A DNA stretch of 64,000 bases from Pomacea canaliculata (lineage: Eukaryota > Mollusca > Gastropoda > Architaenioglossa > Ampullariidae). This document shows, in pieces, positions 10,200-60,785 of the stretch (within the stretch, counting starts at the first letter, position 1; each line of letters opens with the position of its first letter). The notes under the pieces are model-generated. The model worked only from the letters and a program-made list of their open reading frames with translations. It ran no database searches and was not told where the DNA came from. Location: NCBI RefSeq assembly GCF_003073045.1, contig NC_037593.1, forward strand, positions 2,409,525 to 2,473,524, in the 5' to 3' direction. Position numbers and translations under genes: made by a program.

Positions 10200-10765
10200 C
10201 AACAAATCTTAATTAAAAACATACAGTAAATAGTGTCACTGCAGATGTTCACTCATCTCCCAAAGTTTGACTTTTTCATCTGAGTCCTTCTCTCTCTTTC
10301 TCTCAACTTTGTGGTATTCTCGTTTCTGTCTCAAGGGAGGAGGAGTGCACCATGTAACCCCCTAAAAAATAATCTAGGTCTAGGACATGTTTGCTTCTAA
10401 CTGTGTCTGGAAAACTTTTATCTCGCTCTCCTCTCTTCTCTCATTCCTGTTACAGTCGCCTTGCAGTCACTGTTCTTATCTAGTTAACCCTTTCTCTCTG
10501 TAATAACGCCTTTGGTGCTGACACAGTGCTGACTGACCGTTCACAATCATACAGTTAATAAACAGGCAATCGCTCGAGCACACACAGAAATACTGGAAAC
10601 GAATGAAAAATGACGTAGAATTTACAATTTATTTTTTAAAGAAACACGCGACATATGGGATAAATGCTGGCGGACTGCTGTCTGTCTGTCTGTCTGTGAC
10701 TAAAAAAAAAAAAGCTTAATTTGATTCGAAGTCAAACCAGGTGACAGCCATATACTAGACACTAA
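10200..10765. other. Downstream flank shared with SULT-B (inverted)
   Basis: No gene. The segment is the reverse complement of about 32020-32930, including the CTCGAGCGATTGCCTG stretch. At about 10344 it preserves the uninterrupted target site of the LINE insertion found at 32437-32887 in the SULT-B copy. Confidence 0.75.
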
Positions 10766-14167
<3,402 letters not shown>

Positions 14168-14571
14168 GACGTATCTCTACCTGCAGAGAGAAAAGTAGTC
14201 CCGGAGGAAGGCGAACCAGAACGTGCCAACTCACACACGCTAGCATGAATATTTTTCTCAGTATTGCTACACCAGCTTTTCATTCATCGAAGTAATGTCA
14301 CTTTTAAACGGCTTCTCTTCTAAGATTGCTTGAAATTACAGCAACCGCGATCTTTAGTATCTTATTACTCTTATTATCTTCAATAGCATCACCCAAGCCG
14401 GCCGACAGCTAATCTGTCAGTGAACTTTGTAGGTTATCAACCCCAATGTGTAGCTACTGCCACCTTAGAGACACTTGTCATGACAAATCCTTGACAGTCT
14501 GCAGTAGTCGGCAGATCAACAACCTGGAGTCCACACTAACAAACACTCTCACAAACAACACTCTCACTTAC

Positions 14572-15059: not shown

Positions 15060-16430
15060 AACTTTTCCAGACGAGTACCCCTACTTATATGTAGACCTGT
15101 CTAGGACTTAAGGTGCTCGGGTACTAAGAGTTGTACTGTCACACACCAGTCGTGGTACTCGTGTCGCAGTTTGCAAAGCGGGGCACTAGGTCATTGGTGA
15201 GTTCAAGTAGAAATGGGGATCACCTACTTTGTCCAGTCTTGCTAACCTCGGCAAGTATTTTCTTGTGAGTAGGAGGATTTCAAACACTCGTCTAGAAGGC
15301 TTTATGGAGCAGGACACGTGATTGTACTGTAAGGTGTTGTGTTATCCAGTGAATTGTAATGGATCAACAGGCACAGTTAAGGTTTCTATAACCAGCTATA
15401 CTTAGGTCACAAATGTTAAGCAAAGAAATCTCCAATGAATACAACACCTCCCTTCTTCTGTCCCAAAAATGAAAAACAAATCATTACATACCGTTTTTCA
15501 ATGTTCTTTATACCATACTACTTATTCCCCCTTTCATCTCTCATCATGTCATGTGTCTTCGGCCATCAAAATATTGCCACGATTTCCTTTTCATTGTTTA
15601 TAGGAGTTACACTGAAAGCTCTTAAATTGCTGTCGAGCCCTCCATACTTTGTGATGATGGACAATATTGATGCGGTCTACCGAGATAATAAAAATAATGC
15701 CAGAGTCCAGCAATGTCACTAGCAGGACTGTGTATCACTATTGGCTAGTACAAACATTGCATTAGTAAACATCTCACATCTAGTAATGACAAGACGGCGC
15801 AGATGTGAGGGTAGAGATAAAATGGCGAAAAGATGGAAAGTGGGGCAGACACAGACATCCATCCAGAAACGTAGAAAATAACAGATGAAAAGATAAACTG
15901 ATGAACTGATGAACATTAGACACAAAACCTCGCGCAGATAAAGGGACAAATATCAAAAAGAGAGGAGTCACCCTCAAGCCAGTTACATCTACTAAAGAAA
16001 GCAAAGGCTGTTTATGTTTCAGAAAAGACAACAATTGAAAACCTTTAGTTAGAGAAGTGTGACAGCTGAGTGCAGCGCACCATGGATCACCGGACATCCT
16101 CGCGTGACCCGAGGAGGGCGCGGCTTCACTTTCCCACCTCAGTGGTGGCTTCTGTTATCTCTTTGCTGAAACTTTTGACATCATCTGTCATGTTTAGTAC
16201 AGAAATTATAACTACATATGTTTATACCCACTTGTACACTCAAGGAATGATGGAGAGTGAAGAAAGCACAGCAGACAGTTTGTTGAGCTGACACATGATT
16301 GTACTGACTGCAGTTTGCTTCTCCGGCATGCGATGTGATGTCACAGGAGTAAAACATATTACAGAATTCATAAATTCGTCTTTGTATGTATTTCTTTCTG
16401 TAATTCCCTTAATCTTTTGGTGCTAAGCCT
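15060..16430. other. Non-coding; right half duplicated in inverted form at 49.5-49.8 kb
   Basis: No gene recognised. From about 16080 the sequence matches the reverse complement of 49500-49740 (the stretch around CATGTTTAGTACAGAAATTA). The left half has no clear partner. Confidence 0.5.
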
Positions 16431-16436
16431 CTTGTC

Positions 16437-17060
16437 TTAGACAACTGCTTTTGCAGAAGTAAGTTGTGTTAAGACAAAGGTGCTTTGAGGTTTTAGAGAA
16501 ACAAGAAAATTCTTTCACAAAAAGTCGAACTGACGAAATGACAAACCTTCGTTGTCTATACAGGTTTCCCATCCGTTGTGGCCTCCAGTACCAACTGTCC
16601 GTGCTGTGTTTTAATTTCTTTGTGACACCTGCCCTGATTATTTCTCTCAACTGCTCTTCCCTTTCATCCCAGCTACACAACTCCGCTCCTCGTCTCATGA
16701 TCGTCTTCTTACTCTCCATACCCGCCACCTACCCCACTACTGAATCCTTTACACGTGCACTGAAAACTCACCTCTTCCGTCAACATGACTCCTAACAACC
16801 TATCCCATAATGCTCGTCCTTTGTCACACCCTTCCTTTTGTAATATCATGTTACTCTCAGCTCTTGTTCTTGTTATTTGGTTCCTCTTTGTGTTTTCTGT
16901 CTTTGATTATATCTTCGTTTAGTACGGTTGTTTATTCTTTTATCGTTCATATGTTCTTTGCTTGTTTGTTTTTTACTGTCCGTTGTATGCTGTCCGTGTT
17001 TCCTTTGTGTTCTTAAGAGCATGCTCCTTAGGAGTGTGAGTATGGGTTTTAAAAATTTAG
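16437..17060 (+). mobile_element. LINE 3' end: reverse-transcriptase C-terminus fragment
   Basis: Pieces of translation read NLRCLYRFPIRCGLQYQLSV, then TYPTTESFTRALKTHLFRQH. The LHWLPI...LQ.....FK..LKTHLFR pattern is the well-known C-terminal end of CR1/L2/Jockey-type ORF2 proteins. An inverted, longer copy lies at 49040-49500. The A/T-rich tail to about 17060 is shared by both copies, so they were duplicated with the surrounding block and did not insert separately. Confidence 0.7.
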
Positions 17061-17384
17061 CAATAATTATTTTTTTTTAAGTTTGACTTTTCAAATGTCG
17101 GCTGTGTGTGTTTCAGAGGAAAGTAGGGGTTGAGGTGGATATAATGACAGTAAAGGGAAGACAGACAGACTTCTACCCACCACTCGACTTACATGTCTTT
17201 TCTTTCTTTCCTTCTTTCTCTCAAGTTTTGCATCAGCACCTCTCAAAACTGAGAGTGATATCTATGAATGAGTTGTCAGATAATGACTGCATAAAGACAA
17301 TAGACAATAGAAATTACACTTACACACACTGACAAACGCAAACGTCAGCAAAGTACAAACACCATTTGTGTATAGAAGTCTGAG

Positions 17385-17834
17385 TTTATTTTTAAAAGCT
17401 TTAGCGAAAGAAGAAAGAAAGAAGGTTGTATGTTGCCATTGTTGTCCATTATTATAGTGAGTGTCAATGCCAGTACATGTGTCTCTTGTTATCAGCCTCA
17501 CAGCAGCCAAACACAAAGTTTGTCTCTCGTCTGCTGTTGTCTGTGGACTGACAGTGCAGCCAGGACTTGAACTACAGGAAGGTTTATCATCAGAAGACAG
17601 GCTGATACTAAACTACAAGCACTAGGTGAGAGTTGTGTCAGCTGTGGTTATAGTTTGTCTGTACAGGAGACAAAGCTTTAGTAGAAGTCTCTTCAAGTCA
17701 TCTGCCAGGCCGCATGTTTGTAGGAGCAAAAGAAGGAGAAGACAAGTTTGTAGTAAGTGATGATTGTAGCTTGTCTTTGTAGCGGTGAGTGGTTAGGCAG
17801 AAGCAGTGATGTGTGTCGTCCATCGTTGAGCAGC
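17385..17834 (-). other. 3' UTR of P2 with polyadenylation signal
   Basis: The minus strand carries AATAAA at 17385-17390, about 450 bases past the P2 stop. Most of this UTR matches the 3' UTRs of P1 (from 4300) and P4 (from 58311). Confidence 0.6.
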
Positions 17835-19878
17835 TTACATGACAGGGTGTGGCTCATCGGGTGCAAGACGTCTACCACTGGCAACGCCATAGCCAGGTTT
17901 AATACTACCGCCAAAACGAGTCTTAGTGCCATCAGAGGCTCTCTTGTGAAGCTTGTGTAGAACTTCATCTTGTATTGCTAAAAGACAGAGAAATGAGATA
18001 TTGTATCCTCGACATTCGTGCCTCCCGAACATAAATATTCTTACGGAGTAATGTTTATATCTCAACTGCTTTAAGTTTAAGTTTTCCACAAAATCAAATA
18101 GTGCACTTGTCTCCTTTTCTTACGATTCTTCATAGTTTTCGTCTTTCTGCCCTTGTCCTCTGGATCAAAGTTCAGCATCTTGTATTCTAATACATTGGAT
18201 GCCATCTAATTAGCTATAAATATCGGTCCTTTCTGGGCTTTACCCAGCTCACTTCGTGACTCCATGTTTTTCGGATTATTTTAACCTTTGCGACTTGCAG
18301 ACTGCAGGTGCTTGCTGAATGTATGGGAGAATGGGTGAGAACATTAGATGGGAAAGGGTTAACTGTGACACGAACTGTTTTGAGAACGTGGTTCAGCAGC
18401 AGATGTTTGGCGGGAACGAGGTTGAACATCTACTCAGGCTCGGAATAAGGAAGAAATAAAACATGCCAGAGTCACGACCTGTAAATGTCCCGAATTGAGA
18501 TTTCAGGGTAGAGCAGGGTGGTGGTCATCAACACTGGATGGGACGCGGTGCTGACCCCTTGTGGGTTCACCTCGTGTAGATAAGCTTTTAATTGTAAGGC
18601 TAAAGGAACTGGAGCCCTTCTGGATATGGAAGAATCCTCTGCCAGGACCATTCTTTAATCCTCTTTGGTTCAGTACCCAGCAGCACTTGGTTAGTAGCAC
18701 CGTTAGCAAAGTGACGTCACTGGTGTGACTACAGAAACCGCCTGACGTCACGGCCAGTGTGTACGACCTGCGTGTGTGTATTTGTGTTTGTGCAATGTAG
18801 TTGGCTGGACATGTGGAGGGCAACAGCTCTAAGATAGAAGGACGATGAACTGTGAGTAACGAACACAACGATTGCTACAGCGGTTATAAGACACGTCACT
18901 GAACCGGAACATGAGAACTGAACCTTGTTGACAAACAGTAGGAGAGAGTGCGAGGAGTATGTATCTTCATGCTTTTAATTGTGAGTATGCTGAGACTGAT
19001 CGTGGCGAGTGCCCCGGATGTGAACATTGCATGTGTCCTTTAGATTATCGTCGCCTTTAGAACACTGTGTTGAGGCGAGTTGTTTACAAGTAAATATTTG
19101 TGTGGTAGTGTGTAGAGTCCTGAGCCATAACAAACTAACGAAATAAACATGATGTGTACAGCCTCAGGCAAATGTTCTGTTGTTTGTTGACAGGACGGAC
19201 AGTCGTCTGGTGCGAGTGTTGTCAACCTACCTGTGCTGTGACACATAAATATTATGTGAGGTTTGGACTGTAGTCTGCTCTCACTGTGGGCGTCTGTACG
19301 AGCTTCACCATTTCACCTTCATTAACATGGAGAAAGAGCCATTGACATCAAAGAGAAGTTCTTAGCCACTTTCACGGTGTCCTGCTCGTTAGTAAGTGTA
19401 GATAATGAGTAGAGGAAACAAAGTAAACCGATGAAAGCAAAGCATGCCGGTCTGCCTGTGTCTGACTGTCACCGTTACCTGTGGGCTGGTGGTCGGCTGC
19501 TACCATCAACACCTGTCTCCTCGAGTGAGGAGCGCGAGACAGAAGGGTGGGGCGGCGTTTCCCCTTATTTACACCAAACATACACAGTAATATGAGCATC
19601 ACAACTATAACCTAATTAAATAATTATATGTGCTTTTAATAAATACAGCGATTATTTCAGTGTGTTTAACACAATATATAAATTTGGAACTGGCCTCCGT
19701 ATGGGGAAATGAGCTATACTATTCTTATTTTTGTCTTTTTTCTAAATCGGGCATAAATAATGACTTGTGTTTATCATACATTGGGATAAAATAACTTACC
19801 ATCAGGCTCTGCATCACAAGAACTCATCTCTACACACAGGATGAGTAGAGCTGCTGCCAGGATCATCAGCTGACGCAT
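17835..19878 (-). CDS. P2: secreted peptide precursor, 73 residues, two exons
   Basis: Exon 1 (19878-19800) starts MRQLMILAAALLILCVEMSS, a classic signal peptide, and ends with a GTAAGT donor in phase 1. Exon 2 (17977-17835) follows the acceptor TCTCTGTCTTTTAG. It encodes AIQDEVLHKLHKR, a variable segment ASDGTKTRFGG...GYGVASGRR, and the tail LAPDEPHPVM. Cleavage at KR and at RR with amidation at the preceding Gly would give a 21-residue peptide ending in Ser-amide. This is the architecture of neuropeptide and amidated antimicrobial or toxin precursors in the regulated secretory pathway. A TATA box lies about 85 bases upstream of the ATG. The intron of 1822 bases lacks the LINE fragment found in P3 and P4. 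I do not recognise the family. The alternative frame through exon 2 is also open, but only this frame joins the signal exon and keeps indels in threes. Confidence 0.8.
18480..19240. other. P2-specific intron sequence
   Basis: This part of the P2 intron has no counterpart in the P4 or P3 introns. A 121-codon open frame on the minus strand (18503-18868) shows no family I know and no splice context. It may be an old inserted repeat. Confidence 0.4.
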
Positions 19879-19960
19879 GGTGACAAGTGTTTAGAGTTGC
19901 AATAAGGCTACAGGCTGAGACGATTGGCGGATAGCTTCTGTCAGAAACATCGTCTTCAGT

Positions 19961-19969
19961 CCTTTTATA
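19961..19969 (-). promoter_or_regulatory. TATA box of P2
   Basis: TATAAAAGG on the minus strand, about 85 bases upstream of the ATG, leaves room for a short 5' UTR. P3 has the same motif at 48248-48256 and P4 the variant TATAACAGG at 60777-60785. Confidence 0.65.
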
Positions 19970-20039
19970 GCCAGTCTTTAGCACGCCTCCTGGCAACTGC
20001 CGGGTGAGGTTGCTTTTGTTGTCCTTGTTCACCTTCAGA

Positions 20040-20590
20040 AAAGCTTCTACGTTTTACAGAAACAAATCACACACAACATTTCTCCCACTGGCCTCTCGGC
20101 CTCAACTAACAGAGGGTGGAGTCCATAATCTGTCAGTAACTTCCTTTTCCTCTGACCTGTCCTTGGTGTGATGGACATGTCTACAAATATGGGTGTCATT
20201 ATAAGTCTTATATAAAGTAGAGAGTGAACAAAAAGTATCTAACAAAACTTTTATTTTTCAGTGCACCCAACAGTATGACAAGTAATGAAAGGTTCAGTGT
20301 AAGGAAGCAATGAACCAGTCAGCAATCGTCCAGAATGCAGGTCCAAGGTAGGAGGTGTTTGTAAAGTCCAGAGTTCACCTCCGCGACCTCATGCAGCAAA
20401 CACATAACAAGAGTTCAGCTTCATTGTTTGTTTGTCACTTTTGACACAAGTACCCTTACCTCTTAGCTTGATAAAAGTACTCTGTTGGTCTCAAATGTGT
20501 GAAAATCATCAGCTCACAATTTTAATTACTTACAAATATTAATTAAAAAACAAGGGAACACACTTGATAAATGTTTCCTTAAACACTAAT
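20040..20590. repeat. Peptide-gene upstream block, duplicated at 60.9-61.4 kb
   Basis: The stretch around GTGCACCCAACAGTATGACA is shared in the same orientation with 61085-61300, so P2 and P4 share the promoter and at least 0.6 kb upstream. Any common regulation would sit here. No coding sequence. Confidence 0.65.
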
Positions 20591-28185: not shown

Positions 28186-29140
28186 AGCCCCGTTGCTAAC
28201 AAGTGCAGATGCACTCCAGTACCAGCTAAAAGAAGCTGCCAAGTTACAAACTGTGTATTTAAATCTTTTAACCTTATAAACACTCAGAAAGTAAATAAGT
28301 GCCAAATGGCAGTAGTATCTGAATGACCCCAATGCCAGTCCAATGTGTACTTTGTGTTCAAAACAAATCCTTATCCAAACTTTTCACATCCGATTTTAGC
28401 GCACTTTTTTTATCAAAAGTCGCGAGGTTCATCCATCAAATGAGGTCTTCTTCTCGCCCCTAGATGATGAAATTTCCTATTTTTAGATTATTTACTCTCA
28501 CGCGAGGGAACGAAACCGAAAGTGGAGTAACGGCTATGACCAACTTTCAATATCCAGTCATAAAACAAATCACACTATTTGAAATACAAACAAGAAATAC
28601 TATGTGTGTGTATATAGTGATGTTCTAAATGCAATAACAAAATTGTAGTTTGTTGGAAAGGGTGGGGATGCTTACAAGGCTACGACACGACCAGAGCAGC
28701 ATTGACCAGTATAATTAATATACCGCTTCTAAATCATTTTCTTATACCGTAAATTTCGGTCTATTTAGCGAACCTGCTTATCAGCATCATTCACTAATTT
28801 TTGTTAAATCTTAAATTTTTTCCACAAATACGCCGAACTAGTTTATAAGCTGTAGATATAAACATGACAGCGTCATCGTAGGCATTTTGTCTCGTGTTCG
28901 GCATGACGAGGGTGTGTGCTTCAGCAACAGATGCTTCGATTGTTTGAGGCTTTGGTTTTAAAATACGAGCACTGTAACAACCTAAACAGTTAATCTTGCA
29001 TGGCATGTTGAGAACAAAGATGAGGTGTACAGTGTACTGACAGTTATTTTTAGTGTCAGATGTGTTCGCACGTGTTCTGTGCATATTTATTCTCATCTGC
29101 CTGAGAAGTGAGTTCGCCATATTGCAGATAAACAGTAAAC

Positions 29141-32018
<2,878 letters not shown>

Positions 32019-32085
32019 CGAGTGTCTATTATATGGCTGTCACCTGGTTTGACTTCGAATCAAATTAAGCTATTTTTTTTTAGTG

Positions 32086-32130
32086 CCAGCCAGCCAGCCA
32101 GCAGCCAGCCAGCCAGCCAGCCAGCCAGCC
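32086..32130. repeat. GCCA tetranucleotide repeat after SULT-B
   Basis: About ten GCCA/GCCAGC units. The matching place after SULT-A (about 10675-10697) has short GTCT repeats, so this microsatellite changed after duplication. Confidence 0.85.
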
Positions 32131-32436
32131 TTTATCCCATATGTCGCGTGTTTCTTTAAAAAATAAAATGTAAATTCTACATCATTTTTCATTCGTTTCC
32201 AGTATTTCTGTGTGTGCTCGAGCGATTGCCTGTTTATTAACTGTGGACAGTCAGTCAGCACCGTGTCAAAGGCGTTATTACAGAGAGAAAGGGTTAACTA
32301 GATAAGAACAGTGATTACAAGGCGACCGTAACAGGAATGAGAGAAGAGAGGAGAGCGAGATAAAAGTTCTCCAGACGAAGTTAGAAACGAACATGTCCTA
32401 GACCTAGATTATTTTTTGGGGGGTTATATGGTGCAC

Positions 32437-33619: not shown

Positions 33620-35175
33620 TCGGTTATAAGATACATTGTCGATCATTGTAAATAATTCAGTGTTCAAATGTGTGCGTGCGTGTGTGTATTAGAGTGTTTT
33701 AGAGTGTGTGTGTGTGACTGTGTATATGAGAAAGGGAGCCGATGTTGACGGGTGCAGATGTACTCTAAGAACCAACTACAGAGGCTGTCAGCCTCTTTCA
33801 CTGCAATCGGATGTTTTTGAATATTTACAACCAATAATCTCTAATAAAGACAACCAACTGTTTACACCGTTTTAAAAAGCATTTTTCAACATTTGCGTGG
33901 TGTGACTTTTAAGAATTAGAGGTTTTGTTTTCGTCTACTAAATCAAAATGAAAGTTTGTAGCTGTACGGGACAGAGAGAAAACCGGGAAAGTGGGTCAAT
34001 AGTGCGAAAGTTCTCTAAAAATTATTTCTACCTTATCTGCAGACATATAGTGCCAAAACACATATACTTTATTAGAATAAACATTATGCTTTATATATTA
34101 CTTACTATTTTCTTGTAATTCGCATTTGTTTGAGAACATATCCATGTCGAATTGAGTAACACCCAACTAATGTAAAAGGACACCTGGTCGACTAGAACTT
34201 GACTACTTTCACACATGACATAGTACCTGACTGGTTGACGTTTTCAGCGGTTAAGGGGAAGTAATCCATGCTACACGAAATCATGGATTACCAAGAGTTT
34301 TTTCCCTTGTTTTTTTATTCATTTTAGCATATCGCGATGCTGTACGACACTACAATATTAGGACACCTTCACACGACCGCCAACTACGTGTAGAGAGGAG
34401 TTTTTTCTTTTAACCCTTTGTGCCACACGCAAGTAGTAAACAAGAGCCGGAAGGCAGTATTTTCTAAGTGATACCCGTGTGCACAAATCGCTATTCAAAT
34501 TGTTCACATTCGATTTTAGTGTACCTTGGTATCAAAGGTCGCCAGGTTCGTTAATCAAATTAGACATTATATTCTCTCCTAGTTAATGACACTGGCTATT
34601 TTTAGATCATCTACTGTCACACGTTGGAATGAAACGTTAAAGTGAAGCAGCGACTAACTACAGCAATGGCCGGCATTGGATATCCAGTCATAAAACAAAT
34701 CACGCTACTTAAAAAATAGAAAATACTGCTTACATATTGATGTACTAAACTCAATACCAAAATTGTACACCTTGTTAGAAAGTGAGAGAATTGTCACAGG
34801 ACTACCTCACAGCAACTCGCCCAAGTTGGAATGCCCAGAACTTGCCGAGAGAACCACAGAGATCCTTGCCAGACAATATACATTTTACTGTAATAACTAA
34901 TATACTGCATCTCAATAAATTTTTATTTTAGCACTTTTGTAACCAGCAAATTCACAAATTAATTTTTTATTTGAAAACTTATTGCAATTCTTAAACTTAA
35001 AATTCAGTTTGACAAATACAAAGCAAGGAAAGAGTTTGCCAACTGTAATAATGAGAAAAGAACATACTAAAGCCTATATGGCATGGATGAGAGCGAAGAT
35101 GAAGTGACAATTAATTTAGTGTCGGATGTTTGCGCATGCTTTATGCATATTTAGAAAGTAGTCTGTCATTTTGCA
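33620..35175. other. Presumed first intron of SULT-C
   Basis: Non-coding. 34490-34760 matches 28360-28640 of the SULT-B intron, around ATATCCAGTCATAAAACAAA. This supports a common long first intron of about 1.3-1.6 kb. Confidence 0.5.
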
Positions 35176-35189
35176 GATAAAGAGTAAAC

Positions 35190-37388
<2,199 letters not shown>

Positions 37389-37929: not shown

Positions 37930-39700
37930 AAGGGTATGAATGTTGCTCTGTGGCCTGACCCCTTTAGCGGGAATTGGAGGAGAGGGGAGGAGCTCTGTGG
38001 GTGTACAAGGGGATGGGGATGAGGGAACGGGTTGCCCTGTGTTAGAGGTCAGTGTGCTTCGAAAAGCTTGCAATCATTAACATTAACACGAAAATTCCTT
38101 TCTCATCCGGCCCTGAACTACATAAACCACACGACTATATCGACTGAGGTACAAAAATAAGAAACAAATATACACATTTGTTCTTGTCTAAATTATAAAA
38201 AAAAACACGGATGAAGGGATTTATCCATAGCTTTGTCTATACGTGGGTAAAGCTATAGTTTGAACTATGTATAGAGAACACAAAACACAATTCCAATCAT
38301 CCTCATTTTCCGAAAATGCTTAAACTTGTTGATGGGACACAATGTAAACTGTACGAGTCTTGCAATGTAACATTTTTGTGATACAGATACAATAACCACA
38401 GAAATCACAGTTTGTTCTCGTGACAAATTAGTTTCAATATTTGGGTGTCCTTCACCTTGGTATTAAAATTATTGCCCAAATGTTATTAAGTCTTTTATTC
38501 TTTATTCTTTTACTAAAGAAAGAAAGACTCATACTTCTGTAACATACGTGTAACAGATACACTTTTTAATATTTGCTATCCTTGGAATTAAGGTCAGGGA
38601 TAGACAGCTCAGAAGATGTAGACCACACGAGGTCATGACCTGTCCATCAATCAGCACCGTCAGCAACTGTCACACCCACCGCAGCCATAAGTGTCGAATA
38701 ACATGTTTATATTAACAGTCAAGTAAACTAACCACCAGGCTATCAATGCCACCTCAATGATAAGAATTATAAAAACCACTATTTAAATGATAAATTAGTT
38801 TGGAAATTATTAAGACATTAAAAATTTATTTTAAACCTTTCTTCTCTGAGAATGCATAAAGTATGTTCGATGTTTGTAAATATAACAAATATCTCGGTGT
38901 ACTGTGCACAGAGACAAGACAAAAAACCTCAGAAATTCGCGAAAATCATTACGAGAAACCCCGAGATTTGAACGCGTCGACGAAAAACAGCGAGATGTAG
39001 CAATTGTTTGACGAGAAACAGCGAGATTTGGCAATTGTTCGACGAGAAACTAAGCGTTGGTCTCGGCAGACAGAAGGCAGTCCACCTCTACATGTCCGTG
39101 GGTTTCACGGCCTTATAACAGGAGGGAACAGAAAGAATAACAGTTTGCTTTCAAGGTATTTATGATGTGGACTATGACAGAAATCTAGGAGTTGTATTTA
39201 TATTTATATATTAGATAAATTATTTATATTTATATTCATATTTTATATTATATGCATACAGTGTACCTTGTCATTTGACCTGCTCCGTGCCCGAGAATTT
39301 CTGTCCTATTTTGTAAGAAATTCTGTGTCGGTTGTCTGTAATTAGTCACCGAGTATTCCACGGACCACAAGAGTGAAATGAGGAACAGCTTCACATTATG
39401 AAGGCTCACGACCCACGTGACATATTGCTATGCACGTCACGACATACACCTTGAAATCAGAAAACTCTCATCCAAACCTCGCCCTACTCTATTTCTAGCT
39501 CAAGTTTTAAATATGTATGAATAATTTAACCACGGACTAAAACAATAGGAACAAATGTAACTGAAATGGCTTTGATGACAGCAAAGGTTTATCTAGCAAA
39601 GGGGAGTCACTCTCCTGCGAGCGTCTCACCAGTGCAGTTGCATGTTGTATGTGTGTTGAGTCTGGTCTGCCAGATATCTATTTACATTTCTTTTTGCTAG
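37930..39700. other. SULT-D upstream region
   Basis: 37930-38060 weakly matches the promoter blocks of SULT-B and -C (GGAGGAGAGGGGAGG and TTGCCCTGTG followed by GAGGTCAG). The rest is A+T-rich with no gene seen. The acceptor TTTCTTTTTGCTAG lies seven bases before the SULT-D ATG. Confidence 0.4.
38941..39060. repeat. Degenerate 33-35-bp tandem repeat
   Basis: Three to four units resembling CGACGAGAAACAGCGAGATT followed by TGGCAATTGTT. Upstream of SULT-D only. Confidence 0.7.
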
Positions 39701-39706
39701 TAAATC

Positions 39707-42506
<2,800 letters not shown>

Positions 42507-42593
42507 CGAGTGTCTGATATTGTCACTTATGTGCCAAGCCTGTTTCCAGTGACATCAGATGTTGTCATGGACACCATCTGAGTACACGTTTTG

Positions 42594-47178: not shown

Positions 47179-48165
47179 TTAAATTAAAGATTTTAAATTT
47201 TCAACGTTGAGCAGCTCACATGACAGGGTGTGACTCATCGGGTGCAAGACGTCTACCCAAGGAATCCCACCGCCACCGAAACGAGTCTGAGTGCGATCAG
47301 AGGCTCTCTTGTGAGGCTTGTGTACAATATCTTGTATTGCTAAAACACAGAGAAATGAGATATTGTATTACTGGTCTGTGACATTCCTGCTTCCCGTGCT
47401 TAAATATTCTTGCGCAGTAATTTTTTTTTATCTCAACTGATTTAGGTTTTAAGTTTTCCACAAAATCAAATAGTGCAAGTGTCTCCTTTTCTTGCGAACT
47501 TTCACGGTTTTCGTCTTTTTGTGTTTGTCCTCTTGATCAAAGTTCAGCATCTGCTATTCTAATTCTTTGGATGCCGTCCCATTGGCTATAAATATCGGTT
47601 GTGAATCCACCCGTGCTGTGACACTCAGTCAGTTTATTTTGTCAACGTCGGTTACCTATAGCAACATCCAATCAACATTTAGCAGGCTTAGGTGTAGGGA
47701 AACCCCTCAGTTGGTTCCTGGTGGTTTGCACGTCCTTATTCTAAGGATCGACGCAGTAGTAAAACGCTCCTCACTCGAGAAACCACACACAGAATCACTT
47801 GTCACTCTCCAGGTTTCACAACCATACAGTAGGACTGATTTCACATTGGAGTTGAAGATGTGGGTCTTACTACTGAAGGACAATGCTCGGGAGTTCCAGA
47901 TGGTCCGTAGGCTGTTGAAAGCATGCCTGGTCTTGTTGATGCAGCTTTTTGATGATGCCAACAATTTAAATTAGGAACTGTCCTCCGTATGGGAGTATGC
48001 GCTATATATTTCTCTTTTTTTTTTTTTTGTAAATTGGGCATAAATACTGACTTGTGTTTATCATACACTCGGATAAAATAACTTACCATCAGGCTCTGCA
48101 TCACAAGAACTCATCTCTACACACAGGATGAGTAGAGCTGCTGCCAGGATCATCAGCTGACGCAT
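47179..48165 (-). CDS. P3: peptide precursor gene with shifted reading frame
   Basis: Exon 1 (48165-48087) encodes the same MRQLMILAAALLILCVEMSS signal peptide as P2 and P4. Exon 2 starts at 47339 after CTGTGTTTTAG and reads AIQDIVHKPHKR, ASDRTQTRFGGGGIPW. It is 10 bases shorter than P1/P4 before the usual stop, so the frame shifts. The GRR amidation signal and LAPDEPHPVM tail are replaced by VDVLHPMSHTLSCELLN and a later stop (47179). The predicted precursor has 79 residues with an unpaired Cys at the C-terminal end. A TATAAAAGG promoter is present at 48248. The intron of 747 bases contains a LINE fragment. It could be a pseudogene or a neo-peptide using the alternative frame; the first seems more likely. 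Confidence 0.6.
47735..47970 (-). mobile_element. LINE ORF2 C-terminal fragment in the P3 intron
   Basis: Minus-strand translation includes AFNSLRTIWNSRALSFSSKT and VKSVLLYGCETWRVTSDS. This matches the first third of the fragment at 59953-60492. About 47735-47800 instead matches the long-inverted-repeat family (TAGTAAAACGCTCC...CTCGAGAAACCACACAC), so a second event replaced its 3' part. Confidence 0.7.
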
Positions 48166-48247: not shown

Positions 48248-48256
48248 CCTTTTATA
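48248..48256 (-). promoter_or_regulatory. TATA box of P3
   Basis: TATAAAAGG on the minus strand, about 85 bases before the P3 ATG, at the same distance as in P2. Confidence 0.6.
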
Positions 48257-53298: not shown

Positions 53299-55635
53299 GT
53301 AAGTGAGAGTGTTGTTTGTGAGAGTGTTTGTTAGTGTGGACTCCATGTTGTCGATCTGCCGCTTACTGCAGACTGTCAAGGATTTGTCATGACAAGTGTC
53401 TCTAAGGTGGCAGGAGCTATACACTGGGGTTGATAACCTACAAAGTTCACTGACAGATTAGCTGTCGGCCGGCTTGGGTGATGCTATTGAAGATAATAAG
53501 AGTAACAAGATACTAAAGATTGCGGTGGCTGTAGTTTCAAACAGTCTTAGAAGAGAAGCCGTTTTAAAGTGACATTACTTCGATGAATGAAAAGCTGGTG
53601 TAGCAATACTCAGAAAATATTCATGTGAGTTCGCACGTTCTCTGTGATGGTTCGCCGGCCTCCGGGACTACTTTTCTCTCTGCAGGTAGACATACGTCAT
53701 GCCTGCAGCTTACCTGGAGCTGAAGGACAATTTTGGCAATGATCTGAGGTTTGCAAATGGAGGAGATATCTGGTACCCTCCCTTTCCCTTCGCACAAGAT
53801 TATCGACAACACGTCAAAGACATCCGTCAGGTGGAGCTCCGTCCAGATGACATCCTCGTAACGGGTTTCCCCAAAACAGGTGAAGTGTGTTCTTGTCACA
53901 TGTTCGCTGTACAAATATCATCTCGGGTGGCTGGTGGCAGAGTTACTAAACACGACAGTCAGAATCGGGTGTCGTGTGTTGGTATTCTGGCTTCGAGTTA
54001 CCTGTTTGTGACACCTGCTTACACAGATAACCGTCAATGGTTTTTCTCCTAAAACTCTGGTTTCCTCCACAATGGGTGTGTGAGAGAGAAACTATGACTT
54101 GAATGGTAGTAAATGAATTTATTAGACTATTCATGGTGAGATAGTCACTCTATAAATAAACTTCTGTTATGATTATTATGACTTTTAACGAGGTGTCAAC
54201 TGATAACTGTTTTAACTCACGACTGGAAGGCAGATGACTATTTTTATTAAATCAAAATAACTCACAACTCAATAAAGACAGGTTATCGCATACAGCACCC
54301 AGGTACTTATCGGTAGTACTGACACATTTTACTGTAATGTCTGTGTCAATCTCGCAGGATTTCACTGGCACCACGAGATCTTGCACATGCTGCGGGCAGG
54401 ATCACCGGAGTTCGTCACCAAAGCCGAGAACAGAGAGTTCTTGGACTTTTCAACAAAGAAAGAGTTATTGCCCCCTGATAATCCACGAATACTTGCCACT
54501 CATTTCCGGTAATTTTACTTAACTGTTTCAGTTCTATTGCTCTTACCCCGTAGTTCCTGTCTTTGACACCACGTGTCGTTCTTTTTTACGTCTTTGACTG
54601 GGAAACTCTGCCGGTCACACCACAACCATTATTGGATGTTCTTTTCGTGCACAGAATTTACAGCACTCAAATGTCTTGTTTGTTGTAATCTGTCTTATTA
54701 AACACGGTTCCCTAATGAAAGCCAGTACCAAGGTTTAGACGAGATATCTGTACTATTTGGTAAGACACTAAAGAACATGTCAAAACAACCAGTGGTAAAA
54801 ACCTTGTATTTCTCTCTACATGTTGCTACTGTAAGAGTATGTATAAAATTAAATTTTGTTCTAAGGTCTTAAAGAAAGTTTCTCTGTTGCCCAGCTACCA
54901 TCATCTTCCTCTACAAGTGTGGGAGAAGAAAGTCAAGGTTGTGTACTTGACCCGTAACCCTAAGGACACGTGGGTGTCTCTCTACAACCACCTGCATGGA
55001 CACTCGGGTCTCTGCAACTACGATGGTCCCTGGAATCAGTTCTTTGAAGTCATGATGGACATGGGATGTGAGTGCTGCTCATCAGTCGCTAGTATTTATC
55101 TTTGTACCGCTTACAGATCCGACATGACAAAACTATCTCTAAAGATTGGACATGACGAAGGTACCAGTAAAGATCGTTGACGAAGGTACCACTCACGACC
55201 CACGACAAAGGAATCACTAAAATTCCGACATGACAAAGTTGGCTCACGTGAAGAAATGACCATAAGTCTAGAAACATTATTCTGGGGATTAAAATGTCCG
55301 GATTACTCGCAGTAATCTGCTACGTGACTATTTATCTCATTCAATTCCTTGAATAATTTATATTATTAATTTTGAATGTATTTAACTTCCACTTTGTGAG
55401 TTTACATCGCTTTCCACTTATTAACTGTTGGCTTTCCTGCACAGTCTGGTACGGCGACTGGTTTGACTACGTGTTGGACTGGGAGGCTAAGCTGTCAGCT
55501 GACAAAGAACTCAACTACATCATCTCTCCCTTTGAAGACCTCAAGCTGGTGAGAGTCTGAGGGTTAACTTCAATCGTCTTGTATCAACTCGTAGTTACCT
55601 TCTCCTGATTGTATACAGTCTTCATGGTCCACACT

Positions 55636-55656
55636 TCGTTTGAAGACTTCAAGCTG
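55636..55656 (+). pseudogene. Duplicated 3' end of SULT exon 4
   Basis: TCGTTTGAAGACTTCAAGCT plus G and GTGAGGGGCC, 88 bases after the true exon-4 end, matches the end of SULT-D exon 4 and its donor. It marks the recombination point between C-type and D-type sequence. Confidence 0.7.
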
Positions 55657-55815
55657 GTGAGGGGCCTTTTGGGGTTGTCTACTTTAGTATACAGAAGGCT
55701 TGAGGTCCACACGATATTTACGAGTAATTTTAGCACAAATATCTCAGAAGAAGTCTTCAGAAAGTACACTTATCATTCAATTTAAACATTACTTTTCGGC
55801 CATTTCTACTATTAG

Positions 55816-55866
55816 AATGTATAATGTTTATGTATAATGTATAGTGAATAATGTATAATGTATAAC
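55816..55866. repeat. TATAATG-type repeat in SULT-E intron 4
   Basis: Short interrupted counterpart of the array at 41452-41527. Confidence 0.75.
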
Positions 55867-56189
55867 AGGGAATGTATTGTACAAGGATAGAGGCTGCTGG
55901 GGTTGGTAATGAATGACCAAATAAAATCTAAACTTTGAATTATTGAATGTTATGTTCCTGATTGTAATGTTGTAGTTAACTGATTGATTGGTTGCAGGAC
56001 CCCGTGGGACAGATACAGAAGCTGGACAAGTTCCTGGGTCTCAACAGGGGCAGAGAACTGTGTGAGCGCATCGCGGAAGCTTGCAAGTTCTCTAACATGA
56101 AGGCGGTCAAAGATGCACAAACGCCAAGTGAGATGGAAAGAAAATTATGGAATGACAACGCGCCAGACTTCTACAGGAAAGGTAGGTAG

Positions 56190-58311
56190 TATGAAAATAC
56201 GACAGCGCCGTCACGAGTGACATGTAAACAACTAATAATCATGGGCAGATAACTGTGCACGCCTCTCTCTTAAAGGCGAACACAAGTCAATCATGAGGTT
56301 CACCCCAAAGTTGTTGGCAAGTTAATATGGTAACGGGTAGTCATTAGAATTTTACACAACTATATTGGAGATTGTGACAATCGTTTATTATAATAACAGC
56401 AAAGTGTATTGACTTTAATTCTAATAACTGACAGACGTAGGTAAATGCAATGCTAGAATTATATGTTCATGGGCGAGTATACTCTGGTGACACCAGGGGA
56501 AGTGAATATCCACCACACAAAGACACCACGTGGACAGAACACAGGTCTTTATTTCAGAATTGAGAAATCAACATTTTATAACAAATTAAGTTGCTTTGTT
56601 CTCAAGCGATTTTTCTGCTTTCTTGTTCAACCTCTTTATTTGTATTATATGTTTCTTTTAACTGCTTGTTGCATTCTTGCTTCTATTTGTAATTGCTCTA
56701 TTTTCTTCTTGTTGTCAATTTTATTTTAAAATATAGTTATATAGATATTAGATGTAATTCTTTTTGTTCATTGCTAATGAGAAAGCGTGATTTTTAAAAA
56801 AAATTAGATTTTCCAGTTGTTTTCACTATTTCTGTGTGAGAAATGTGTGATTGCTTGATTGAATGTCAGTCAGTAAATACTGTGTCACCACCTCAGGCGT
56901 TATTAAGACAACAAAGGGTTAAAGTAGTAAGAACATTGAAAGGTTGTAACTGTATGAGAAAAAGAATTCACAGATCTATGTAGAAAGAAATGAAGAAAAA
57001 AAATATTTACACAATATCTGTTTAAACAAAAAGTACCAAACAAATAAATATTTTCTTGAAATATACTTAAAATATAAATATTACTTACTGTTTTCCTCTT
57101 ATTGTTTGTTCTTTTGAGTACAAATCGATGTTGAATCGAGTAACCGGCAACCGACTTTAACATGGCGCTTGATCAACTGAACCTTCGCCTACTTTCAACT
57201 GTCAGAGGGAAGTAATCCATAGTAGAACAATTCCTAAAGGATGCAGTAGTTTTCTCCCTTATAGATTCTTTTATTCACCCACAGTCACAACCTCAGACTT
57301 ACTACTGTGCTTACAACAATGAGGTGTACGCCGATGCGCGACATGTAGAGAAGGGAAGGCCTCGGGATCAACTATTTTATTCGAACATTGCTTTTCGCAC
57401 TGACTTGTTGTACGCATGCGCCAATTGCCGCACATGGTTGCCAAGCAGACAACCTTTGACCTCGCAAAGGAAAAGCTAGCTCGCGTGTCCGACACTTTCA
57501 TTCAAAACAAACGGAATAAAATGCCGAGATGGGTGTGCTTCAAGACTGAAGGTAAGATGAAATGAGAAAGTTGTGACTTGCCGGATGAACACTGTAACAG
57601 TCAGCACTGAGAAAGAACGAGATGAAGACAACGAAGATGAACAAAGATGTGGAACAGAAGACGACATCACTTGCTGGCTCCACAATTATCAACAGCCAAA
57701 ATCATGATAATAATACTGGAAGTGCATCTAAGACTTTATTTTCAAAGTAGACAAAACTACAGTATGATTTCAGCTAGAATTATTTTTGCAAACTATCAAT
57801 AGATAAGGGGGGGGGGCGGGGACAACTATATTTACTATACTTATCTTGCAAACCAGTTTCACCCTCCCTCCCTCAGAATATTTTTATTGCATGAATTTTG
57901 TCTGTTTTTACGAATATTATTTCCATTATTATGGTGAGTGTCAATGCCAGTACATGTGTCTCTTGTTATCAGCCTCACAGCAGCCAAACACAAAGTTTGT
58001 CCCTCGTCTGCTGTTACCTGTGGACTGACAGTGCAGCCAGTACTTGAACTACAGGAAGGTTTATCATCAGAAGACAGGCTGATACTAAACTACAAGCACT
58101 AGGTGAGAGTTGTGTCAGCTCTGGTTATAGTTTGTCTTTACAGGAGACAAAGCTTTAGTACAAGTCTCTTCAAGTCATCTGCCAGGCCGCATGTTTGTAG
58201 GAGCAAAAGAAGGAGTAGACAAGTTTGTAGTAAGTGATGATTGTAGCTTGTCTTTGTAGCGGTGAGTGGTTAGGCAGAAGCAGTGATGTGGGTCGTCCAT
58301 CGTTGAGCAGC
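56190..58311. other. SULT-D-type intron remnant, then peptide-gene duplicon and P4 3' UTR
   Basis: 56190-56600 is SULT-D intron 5. About 56780-56900 matches 24830-24960 and 44230-44350. 56940-57800 matches 2960-3830. From about 57900 it is the P4 3' UTR, with AATAAA on the minus strand at 57735-57740. No additional gene. Confidence 0.6.
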
Positions 58312-60694
58312 TTACATGACGGGGTGTGGCTCATCGGGTGCAAGACGTCTACCAATCAAACCGATCAAAGCAACGCCGAAACGAGTGGTAGTGGTATAAG
58401 AGGCTCTCTTGTGAGGCTTGTGTAGAACTTGTTCTTCTTGTATTGCTAAAACACAGAGAAATGAGATATTGTATTACTGGTCCGTGACATTCCTGCCTCC
58501 CGAACTTAAATATTCTTGCACATTAATGTTTATATCTCAACTCCTTTCAGTTTAAAGTTTTCCACAAAATCCCATAGTGGAATTGTCTCATTTTCTTACC
58601 AATTCTCAGTTTTCGTGTTTTTTGCCCTTGTCCTCTGGATCAAAGTTCAGCATCTGGCATTTTAATTCTTTGGATTCCGTCCCATCGGCTATAAACATCA
58701 AAATGTCAAGCCACCCGTGCTGTGACACTCAGTGAGTTTATTTTGACAAAGTCGGTTACCTATAGCAACATCCAATCAGCATTTAGCAGGTTTCTTACTG
58801 GGGAGCTCTAGTCGGGAGATAAGTGTAAATATAAATATTATGTGAGGTTTGGACCGTAGTCTGCTCTCACTGTGTGCGTCTGTACGAGCTTCACCATTTC
58901 ACCTTCATTAACATGGAGTGTCATGGATCTAGTCAGAGTGCTAGGACTGGGCGCGTGTGTAGATGAAAGCGTGCGAATGATGTACGTTGTCTAAATGGAA
59001 CGTGAAAAATGACGTAGAGTGACGTCAAAAGAAATAGTGAGGTAAGAGAGAGGATCGTTGAGAGGGGATATAGAAGCAGAAGGACGTGAGAGGACATTTT
59101 TTTTGGAAGAAGAAGGAGGTTAAAAGAGCGGATAGAAGACGGAGTGAGTTGGAAGAGAGCCTTTGCCAAGACAATGTGCCTCGCGAGTGAGTAAAAGATT
59201 GAGTGTGATAGTCAAAGAAGAAACCAGCGTGTTAGTGACTGTATTTTTTTTTTAGTCAGGATTTTTTCTTTTGAGTTTTTGTTTAGTAAACAAGGGCAGA
59301 CTCGATCGAACAGGCGAATCTTTTTTTTCTGAGTGAAAGAACTCGCAATTGTCCGACCCGCTGGTGAGTTGGAGAGAGCGAGAAACTATAGGCACCGGCG
59401 GCGTCGTGACATGGAGAAAGAGCCATTGACATCAAAGAGAAGTCCTTAGCCACTTTCACGGTTTCCTGCTGTTTAGTAAGTGTAGATAATGAGTAGAGGA
59501 AACAAAGTAAACCGATGAAAGCGAAGCATGCCGGTCTGCCTGTGTCTGACTGTCACCGTTACCTGTGGGCTGGTGGTCGCCTGCTACCATCAACACTTGT
59601 CTCCCCGAGTGAGGAGCACGAGACAGAAGGGTGGGGCGGCGTTTCCCCTTATTTCAACCAAACATGCACAGTAATGTGAGCAGCGTGTTTACTGACCATC
59701 ACAACTATAACTAAATTATATAAGTATATGTACTTTTAATAAATACAAGGATTATTTCAGTGTGTTTCACACAAAAAATGTTAAACGCAAAGTATTTGTT
59801 ATTTCTTGCTCTCTCTATGTGGAATCACGCAAGCATGTCAGTGTGAAATTTCAAGGCAATAGGCTAACCATCACTGTGCACGTTTCTGTTTCTACAACAA
59901 TTCCTTCCTGTACCAAAACAGCATTAATTGTGTAATAGTTTAGTCCTTGTTACTAATGCAGGAGCATAGGGCCGCAACACAACTTCACCAGCGGACCCGG
60001 TATAGGGCAGCCCCTCAGGTGGGTCCAGGTGGTTCCCACATCCTTTGCCTCGCTCTCTACTGTTCTTTTCCAAGTCTTTTTCGGTCTCCCAAATCTCCAC
60101 TTCCCCTGGGGTTTCCAGTCACGTGCCTGCCTGGCAATGGTGTCAGCTGGTTTGCACAGGGTGTGTCCTGTCCAGCCCCATTTGCGCTTTGTGAGGTCTT
60201 GGCTAGTGGCATTCTGTTTGGTTCTCTTCCAAAGGCTGCTGTTGGAGAACTTTTCAGGCCATCTTCTTTCCAGAATATGAATTAGGCATCGGTTGGTAAA
60301 GGTCTGCAGCTTGTTGTTGATGGTGTTTGTCACTCTTAAGGTTTCACAACCATACAGTAGGACTGAATTCACATTGGTGTTGAAGATGTGGGTCTTACTG
60401 CTGAAGGACAATGCTCGGGAGTTCCAGATGGTCCGAAGGCTGTTGAAGGCAAGCCTGGCATTGTTGGTGTTGCTTTTTAATGATGTCAACAATTCAAATT
60501 AGGAACTGGCCTCCATATGGGAAAATGCGCTATACTATTCTTATTTTTGTCTTTTTTCTAAATTGGACATAAATACTGACTTGTGTTTATCATACATTGG
60601 GATAAAACAACTTACCATCAGGCTCTGCATCACAAGAACTCATCTCTACACACAGGATGAGTAGAGCTGCTGCCAGGATCATCAGCTGACGCAT
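58312..60694 (-). CDS. P4: secreted peptide precursor, 70 residues, two exons
   Basis: Exon 1 (60694-60616) encodes the same signal peptide as P2 and ends in a phase-1 GTAAGT donor. Exon 2 (58445-58312) encodes AIQEEQVLHKPHKR, then ASYTTTTRFGVALIGLIGRR, then LAPDEPHPVM and TAA. KR and G-RR processing would free a 17-residue hydrophobic peptide ending in Ile-amide. Only AS, the TRFG core and the GRR end are shared with P2 in the middle segment, while both flanks are almost unchanged. The intron of 2170 bases holds a solo LTR and a LINE fragment, neither in exons. A weaker TATA (TATAACAGG) stands at the usual distance. Function unknown; a neuropeptide, defence peptide or toxin-like secreted product are all possible. 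Confidence 0.8.
58919..59411 (+). mobile_element. Solo LTR of a second family in the P4 intron, fossil
   Basis: The sequence starts TGTCATGGATC and ends GGCGTCGTGACA. It is flanked by TGGAG on both sides (58914-58918 and 59412-59416). The P2 intron keeps the empty site (ATTAACATGGAGAAAGAGCC, about 19322). The ends and the 5-bp duplication fit a Gypsy-type LTR. No internal sequence. The target duplication is intact, so the insertion is later than the P2/P4 duplication. Strand is arbitrary. Confidence 0.8.
59953..60492 (-). mobile_element. LINE ORF2 C-terminal fragment in the P4 intron
   Basis: An uninterrupted 179-codon frame on the minus strand includes VNSVLLYGCETLRV, LERRWPEKFSNSSLWKRTKQ, KRKWGWTGHTLCKPAD and FGRPKKTWKRTVE. 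This is the conserved C-terminus of a widespread invertebrate non-LTR retrotransposon ORF2 (the KRKWGWIGHTLRK and GRPKTTWRR motifs). The 3' UTR continues to about 59778. The P2 intron lacks it; P1 and P3 retain parts. Confidence 0.85.
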
Positions 60695-60776: not shown

Positions 60777-60785
60777 CCTGTTATA
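60777..60785 (-). promoter_or_regulatory. TATA-like box of P4
   Basis: TATAACAGG on the minus strand at the position of TATAAAAGG in P2 and P3. One base makes it weaker. Confidence 0.5.

Follow-up and report, generated by a model that had tools for sequence, protein, structure and literature searches.

A candidate family of secreted prepropeptides with a variable, cysteine-free core in the apple snail Pomacea canaliculata

Conotoxin precursors contain a basic cleavage site, their products are frequently amidated at the C-terminus, and the mature region of most conotoxin superfamilies is built on a cysteine framework. Cleavage after KR or RR and conversion of glycine to an amide are standard chemistry of the secretory pathway. 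Passages of one paper describe toxin precursors as conserving the signal and spacers while the toxin region varies, and signaling precursors as showing the reverse (PMC10501145). Parts of another indicate that conserved signal, UTR, and intron sequences have served as primers for the cloning of conotoxins (PMC6266589).

Here we analyze a 64-kb stretch of P. canaliculata DNA (the window) in which two genes, G2 and G4, encode a two-exon precursor with a signal-like start followed by KR, a core, G-RR, and a tail, just as the initial annotation had described it. The apple snail is a plant-eating host in which, to our knowledge, no venom gland or venom organ occurs. Like conotoxin precursors, as parts of PMC10501145 and PMC6266589 portray them, the precursors of the window combine a conserved signal, spacer, and UTR with a hypervariable mature segment. 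They differ in that the core is followed by a constant tail of 10 residues and that the intron diverges by 13–14%, whereas the alpha-conotoxin intron is called highly conserved in passages of PMC6266589. In addition, the conotoxin cysteine framework is absent: the P1, P2, and P4 cores (those of the three intact copies of exon 2) are free of cysteine. No sequence relation to conotoxins was found, in that a protein search gave only Pomacea proteins and there was no Pfam family.

With molluscan neuropeptide precursors the family shares a signal-like start, dibasic sites, and a G-RR amidation signal, as well as the serial units that are present in one database relative (LOC112563154). Conserved neuropeptide families typically have orthologues in several molluscan classes. 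The matches in the protein search were all from P. canaliculata. If the core is the product, the pattern of conservation is the reverse of that in neuropeptide precursors; if the tail is the peptide, it is not reversed. (Note that this comparison sets duplicates in one genome against the orthologues considered in the relevant parts of PMC10501145.) The initial annotation had named toxin, defense, and some neuropeptide families together as having such a pattern. The contrast between core and flanks is indeed like that of toxins or defense peptides, but of the three classes the neuropeptides would appear to fit least, because published signaling precursors show the opposite pattern in the portions of PMC10501145 that deal with them. 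Linear amidated antimicrobial peptides offer a further likeness, since the cores are short and cysteine-free, have a predicted pI of 8.8–9.7 (as free acids), might carry an amide, and in the case of P4 are hydrophobic (GRAVY 1.00). The P1 core, in contrast to such peptides, is Gly-rich with little charge, and no sequence relation to them was found.

Gene structure, copies, and relatives

We propose that the family consists of tandemly duplicated two-exon genes of the apple snail, each encoding a secreted prepropeptide. Exon 1 would supply the 5' leader and the signal peptide (the predicted cleavage point in G2 was placed by eye), and exon 2 would supply a short acidic pro-region ending in KR, a cysteine-free core of 17–21 residues, G-R-R, and the constant tail. 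After removal of the signal, a convertase of the furin/PC type would cut behind KR and behind RR, the glycine before RR would give rise to a C-terminal amide, and the core would be set free as an active peptide. In amidated form the cores would have average masses of ~2055.3 (P2) and ~1783.1 (P4). The copies would thereby hold the rest of the message near constant and diversify the core. Secretion, cleavage, amidation, expression, and the role of the peptides are all predicted here from the DNA. The features of the window are collected in Table 1.

Table 1. Positions of the peptide genes, their motifs, and neighboring genes in the window.
Feature	Positions	Strand	Remarks
G2 coding gene	19878 to 17835	-	ATG 19878, stop 17835; 73 residues coded, two exons
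G2 TATA-box-like motif	19961..19969	-	TATAAAAGG; 83 nt upstream of G2 ATG
G2 exon 1 (coding part)	19800..19878	-	predicted signal peptide MRQLMILAAALLILCVEMSSCDA plus EPD
G2 intron		-	phase 1; GT donor at 19799, acceptor AG before 17977
G2 exon 2 (P2)	17835..17977	-	pro-region ending KR, core ASDGTKTRFGGSIKPGYGVAS, G-RR, tail LAPDEPHPVM, stop TAA
AATAAA downstream of P2	17385..17390	-	within sequence not common to P1/P4
G4 TATA-like motif	60777-60785	-	TATAACAGG; counterpart of the G2 motif
G4 exon 1 (coding part)	60616..60694	-	
G4 exon 2 (P4)	58312..58445	-	core ASYTTTTRFGVALIGLI; 70-aa predicted product, C0Q70_06709
AATAAA of P4	57883..57888	-	
G3 TATA-box-like motif	48248-48256	-	same motif and same distance as in G2
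G3 exon 1 (coding part)	48087..48165	-	intact
G3 exon 2 (P3)	47218..47339	-	core frameshifted; G-RR and tail out of frame
P1	4301..4434	-	intact exon 2, core ASDRTKTLSGGGFGGGF
AATAAA of P1	3876..3881	-	
P0	1216..1355	+	inverted degenerate exon 2
Sulfotransferase copy	10345-14176	-	
Sulfotransferase copy	29132-32436	+	
Sulfotransferase copy	35105-36905	+	
Sulfotransferase copy	39699-42515	+	
Sulfotransferase copy	53690-56589	+	

Searches of the 64-kb window with tblastn, blastn, and nhmmer found five copies of exon 2 (P0 to P4) and three of exon 1. The nhmmer E values of the five exon-2 copies, obtained with a model built from these same copies, ranged from 3.6e-70 to 3.8e-92 and lie far beyond chance; after the family copies, the next matches over the window reached only E 0.39 (exon 2) and 1.5 (exon 1). 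Two of the five second exons belong to complete intact genes (P2 and P4), one is an intact orphan exon (P1), and two are degenerate (P0 and P3). In G2 and G4 the exons and splice sites fit exactly, with an intron in phase 1, and a check of the splice sites on the minus strand found the coordinates first given for the G2 exons to be exact. The position of TATAAAAGG upstream of G2 suggests a TATA-box-like role. No exon 1 for P1 was recognised upstream of it in the window, the exon-1 model giving nothing between P1 and G2; we entertained the idea that P1 might serve as an alternative second exon for exon 1 of G2.

The dibasic sites and the amidation signal are in frame in P1, P2, and P4, and KR and G-RR are retained in all three of these intact copies as well as in both units of LOC112563154. 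P0, on the other hand, reads AK-stop-TKI, its third exon-2 codon being an in-frame TAA, and carries KT at the site of KR; the core of P3 measures 56 nt with the G-R-R codons, which puts the tail out of frame. Similarity of P3 to its sister copies extends only ~16 nt beyond the tail, the homologous 3' flank being missing. This breakage of P0 and P3 suggests weak constraint. The initial annotation was thus partly confirmed in what it had observed: its counts of five second and three first exons stand, as do the P1 and P4 cores that it quoted and its statement that the lengths of P0, P1, P2, and P4 differ by multiples of three (66, 60, 72, and 60 nt of core including G-R-R, each itself a multiple of three), but the fixed design that it ascribed to all five copies does not extend to P0, with its stop and lost KR, or to the frameshifted P3.

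The coding sequence of exon 1 is identical across G2, G3, and G4, so that its 26 residues are the same in all three copies, while the adjoining promoter and intron DNA differ. When exon 1 of G2 is taken together with ~50 nt of the 5' leader, identity amounts to 100% with G3 (145 nt) and 98.7% with G4 (150 nt); a longer stretch upstream of exon 1 shows 87–89% identity between G2 and G3/G4. Note that in G3 a perfect signal exon lies beside a frameshifted exon 2, which would be odd if selection on G3 alone conserved exon 1. For G3, this combination favors gene conversion or recency over selection.

Three relatives were found in the protein search, all from P. canaliculata, and all three contain the 26-residue signal exon of the family. 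LOC112563154 (P0001; 115 aa), a paralogue whose LOC name suggests an NCBI gene model, is annotated as "uncharacterized"; C0Q70_06709 (P0002; 70 aa, "hypothetical", with the UniRef name "Secreted protein") is identical to the product of G4, the variable core included, which points to P. canaliculata or a very close relative as the source of the DNA; and C0Q70_06710 (P0003; 69 aa) has the same start and a different end, departing from the family after the start of the core. The G2 and G4 products share with LOC112563154 the signal exon and the layout KR-core-G-RR-LAPDEPHPVM. In LOC112563154 two core units follow each other in one precursor, joined at the tail position by LAPDVKSD, as if by an internal exon with its own donor; on the strength of this gene model, the family may include serial-peptide precursors. 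None of the three family proteins scanned against Pfam at E up to 0.1 matched a family, and a sequence search of the PDB gave no solved relative (its one match, at E 0.88, was dismissed). The initial annotation knew no family with this tail, which holds for Pfam and for solved structures; NCBI nevertheless lists members of the family under hypothetical or uncharacterized proteins, and the family is uncharacterised rather than wholly unseen. The text of open-licence articles in PMC (without supplements) contained no paper with the sequence strings or gene tags of the family, and the family goes unnamed in the open-licence PMC titles and abstract beginnings listed for Pomacea neuropeptides, antimicrobial or uncharacterized proteins, the albumen gland, sulfotransferases, or gene-family expansion.

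Several further features of the neighborhood were recorded. Copies of a sulfotransferase gene, whose matching pieces are ~75–94% identical, are interleaved with the peptide genes, and Sulfotransfer_1 (PF00685) was found in three of the five stretches scanned from these copies. An inverted pair (16169-17411 / 49755-48406, 84–95% identical) lies directly against G2 at its 3' end and against G3 on the upstream side. A 55-bp unit is repeated 5.0 times with 100% matches at 2218-2493. A shifted reading frame runs on without a stop into the 3' flank in P2 (17696-17977, minus strand, 94 codons) and in P1 (4168-4434, minus strand, 89 codons); a conserved overlapping second frame was considered and rejected, the frame being open in P1 and P2 and containing stops in P4. 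An Rfam scan of 17400-20100 gave no matches.

Divergence of the core within a conserved message

P1, P2, and P4 were aligned together with ~250 nt of intron and ~380 nt of downstream sequence. (The divergence counts omit the broken copies P0 and P3, as well as P0001 to P0003, which are represented by protein only.) Variable columns amounted to 22/51 in the core, 49/244 in the intron, 3/38 in the pro-region, 1/42 in the tail, and 14/376 in the 3' flank; in the contrast of the core with tail, pro-region, and 3' flank the family follows the conotoxin-like pattern, a likeness in how it works and not in membership. Listed in the order P1–P2, P1–P4, and P2–P4, the differences were 32/248, 34/252, and 34/244 in the intron; 3/38, 1/41, and 2/38 in the pro-region; 10/51, 18/51, and 18/51 in the core (where P2 has 12 extra nt); 0/42, 1/42, and 1/42 in the tail; and 9/376, 9/376, and 10/385 in the 3' flank. 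With three copies, the core differed from the 3' flank with p = 6e-14, from the tail with p = 2e-6, from the pro-region with p = 3e-4, and from the intron with p = 0.001 (p = 0.004 once the final 50 columns of the intron are dropped), a contrast drawn from few copies, few sites, and non-independent pairs.

The most variable window of the intron had 15/51 variable columns, compared with 22/51 in the core. Between P1 and P4, none of 1468 overlapping 51-base non-core windows reached the 18 differences of the core (the maximum was 12), and between P2 and P4 none of 548 did so (the maximum, 16, came close). Between P1 and P2, however, 134 of 699 non-core windows equaled or exceeded the 10/51 of the core (Fisher p = 0.27 versus the intron). 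The excess of core over intron divergence rests on the comparisons with P4 and is absent in P1–P2.

At the level of codons, the core had a pN of 0.23–0.40 and a pS of 0.15–0.24 (Nei-Gojobori; pN/pS ~1.5–1.8), values that are compatible with positive selection but that come from 48 codon sites, too few for proof. The tail had a pN of 0 in all three pairs. In the pro-region pS was 0 and pN 0.03–0.11, its few differences all being replacements; the pro-region is not cleanly constrained at the protein level. Note also that the P1 and P4 cores align slightly better when two compensating single-base gaps are allowed (score 26 versus 24), and a compensated frameshift may have been the source of part of the P4 core (VALIGLI).

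The profile of differences between P1 and P4 shows a single spike, in the core, within a block of low divergence. There are no differences from 4500 to 4417, a stretch that crosses the splice acceptor; after the core the count stays at 0–3 per 50 as far as 3933. The stretch 3932-3829, which contains gaps and the AATAAA of P1, has 4 and 2 differences per 50, the rise in divergence falling across 3918-3829, and from 3828 to 3579 there are 6–7 per 50. The homology of P2 with P1 and P4 stops at 17445. Stretches of low divergence thus roughly track the inferred message, and it is this message-following conservation that, in our estimation, speaks most strongly for the transcription units being real. 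The initial annotation had set very different cores against nearly identical flanks. The difference between core and flanks is borne out, but because ~376 nt of 3' non-coding sequence are also near-identical, the identity of the flanks is not specific to protein-level constraint on the tail; the conservation of the tail is nothing special, the 3' non-coding part being as conserved. The conservation of the message could stem from constraint as well as from conversion between copies.

Weighing the explanations

We favor a toxin-like role because, if the core is the product, the family sides with the pattern of toxin precursors. On this reading, to which we give roughly an even chance, the genes would encode secreted prepropeptides with a diversifying core bounded by KR and G-RR, serving in exocrine defense or in a toxin-like capacity and not as a conserved neurohormone. 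(Peptides of reproductive conflict might be named beside toxins and exocrine defense as having such a pattern.) The interpretation offered by the initial annotation is partly supported as a whole; the contrast behind it is striking but comes from three intact exons, and we regard the genes as real and the interpretation as plausible but unproven.

One alternative is that the conserved pieces (EPDAIQEEQVLHKPH and/or LAPDEPHPVM) are the active peptides and that the core is a relaxed spacer, as in ordinary neuropeptide precursors. Parts of PMC10501145 describe signaling precursors in which the peptides are conserved and the spacers drift, and both the absence of replacements from the tail in every pair and a P1–P2 core divergence no higher than that of the intron fit such an arrangement. 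We nevertheless consider this serious rival less likely than not, given that the tail DNA (1/42) is no more conserved than the 3' non-coding flank (14/376), that the core exceeds intron divergence in P1–P4 and P2–P4, and that P1, P2, P4, and both units of LOC112563154 retain a glycine ahead of RR for which a spacer would have no use. The constant signal exon also speaks against a spacer, although among duplicates it may only mean recency.

Recent duplication together with gene conversion could instead have homogenized exon 1, exon 2, and the 3' UTR, leaving a core that escaped and drifted with no adaptive diversification. One would then have to explain how a short core was spared within the conversion tracts of three pairs, and why the P1–P4 replacement divergence (0.40) lies above the divergence of the intron (0.135); moreover, the P1–P4 block of low divergence sets in close to the acceptor and tapers off around the poly(A) signal, a pattern resembling constraint on the message. 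Conversion draws its appeal from the 3' flank, which at ~2.4–2.6% (376–385 nt) contrasts strongly, for a non-coding stretch, with the 13–14% of the intron, from the presence of degenerate copies and of G3, whose perfect exon 1 accompanies an exon 2 that is broken, and from the synonymous divergence of the core, which is also raised, so that heterogeneity of mutation or conversion could contribute. Taken together, we judge this explanation rather improbable. That the open frames arose by chance or belong to a non-functional relic family is a very remote prospect: the breakage of P0 and P3 and the lack of an exon 1 for P1 within the window speak for it, but NCBI gene models exist, the signal exon is invariant, and splice sites, TATA-like motifs, and AATAAA motifs are in register.

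Significance

What is new here would be a conotoxin-like layout with a cysteine-free core and, in the protein search, without relatives beyond P. canaliculata. A further reading, which we hold tentatively and consider somewhat doubtful, is that a lineage of non-venomous, plant-eating snails evolved a conotoxin-like diversification of linear amidated peptides independently of cone snails, nearly all of the remaining message staying constant (3' UTR included) while a block of ~51–63 nt outpaces the introns through substitution, indels in multiples of a codon, and possibly compensated frameshifts. If true, this would be an independent case of peptide evolution with a constant frame and a variable core outside venom glands, in duplicates close enough for intron, UTR, and core to be compared side by side, and whether selection or focal mutation is the source of hypervariability would become testable. 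P. canaliculata is an invasive crop pest, and the genes described here would then represent an unexplored peptide family in such a snail.
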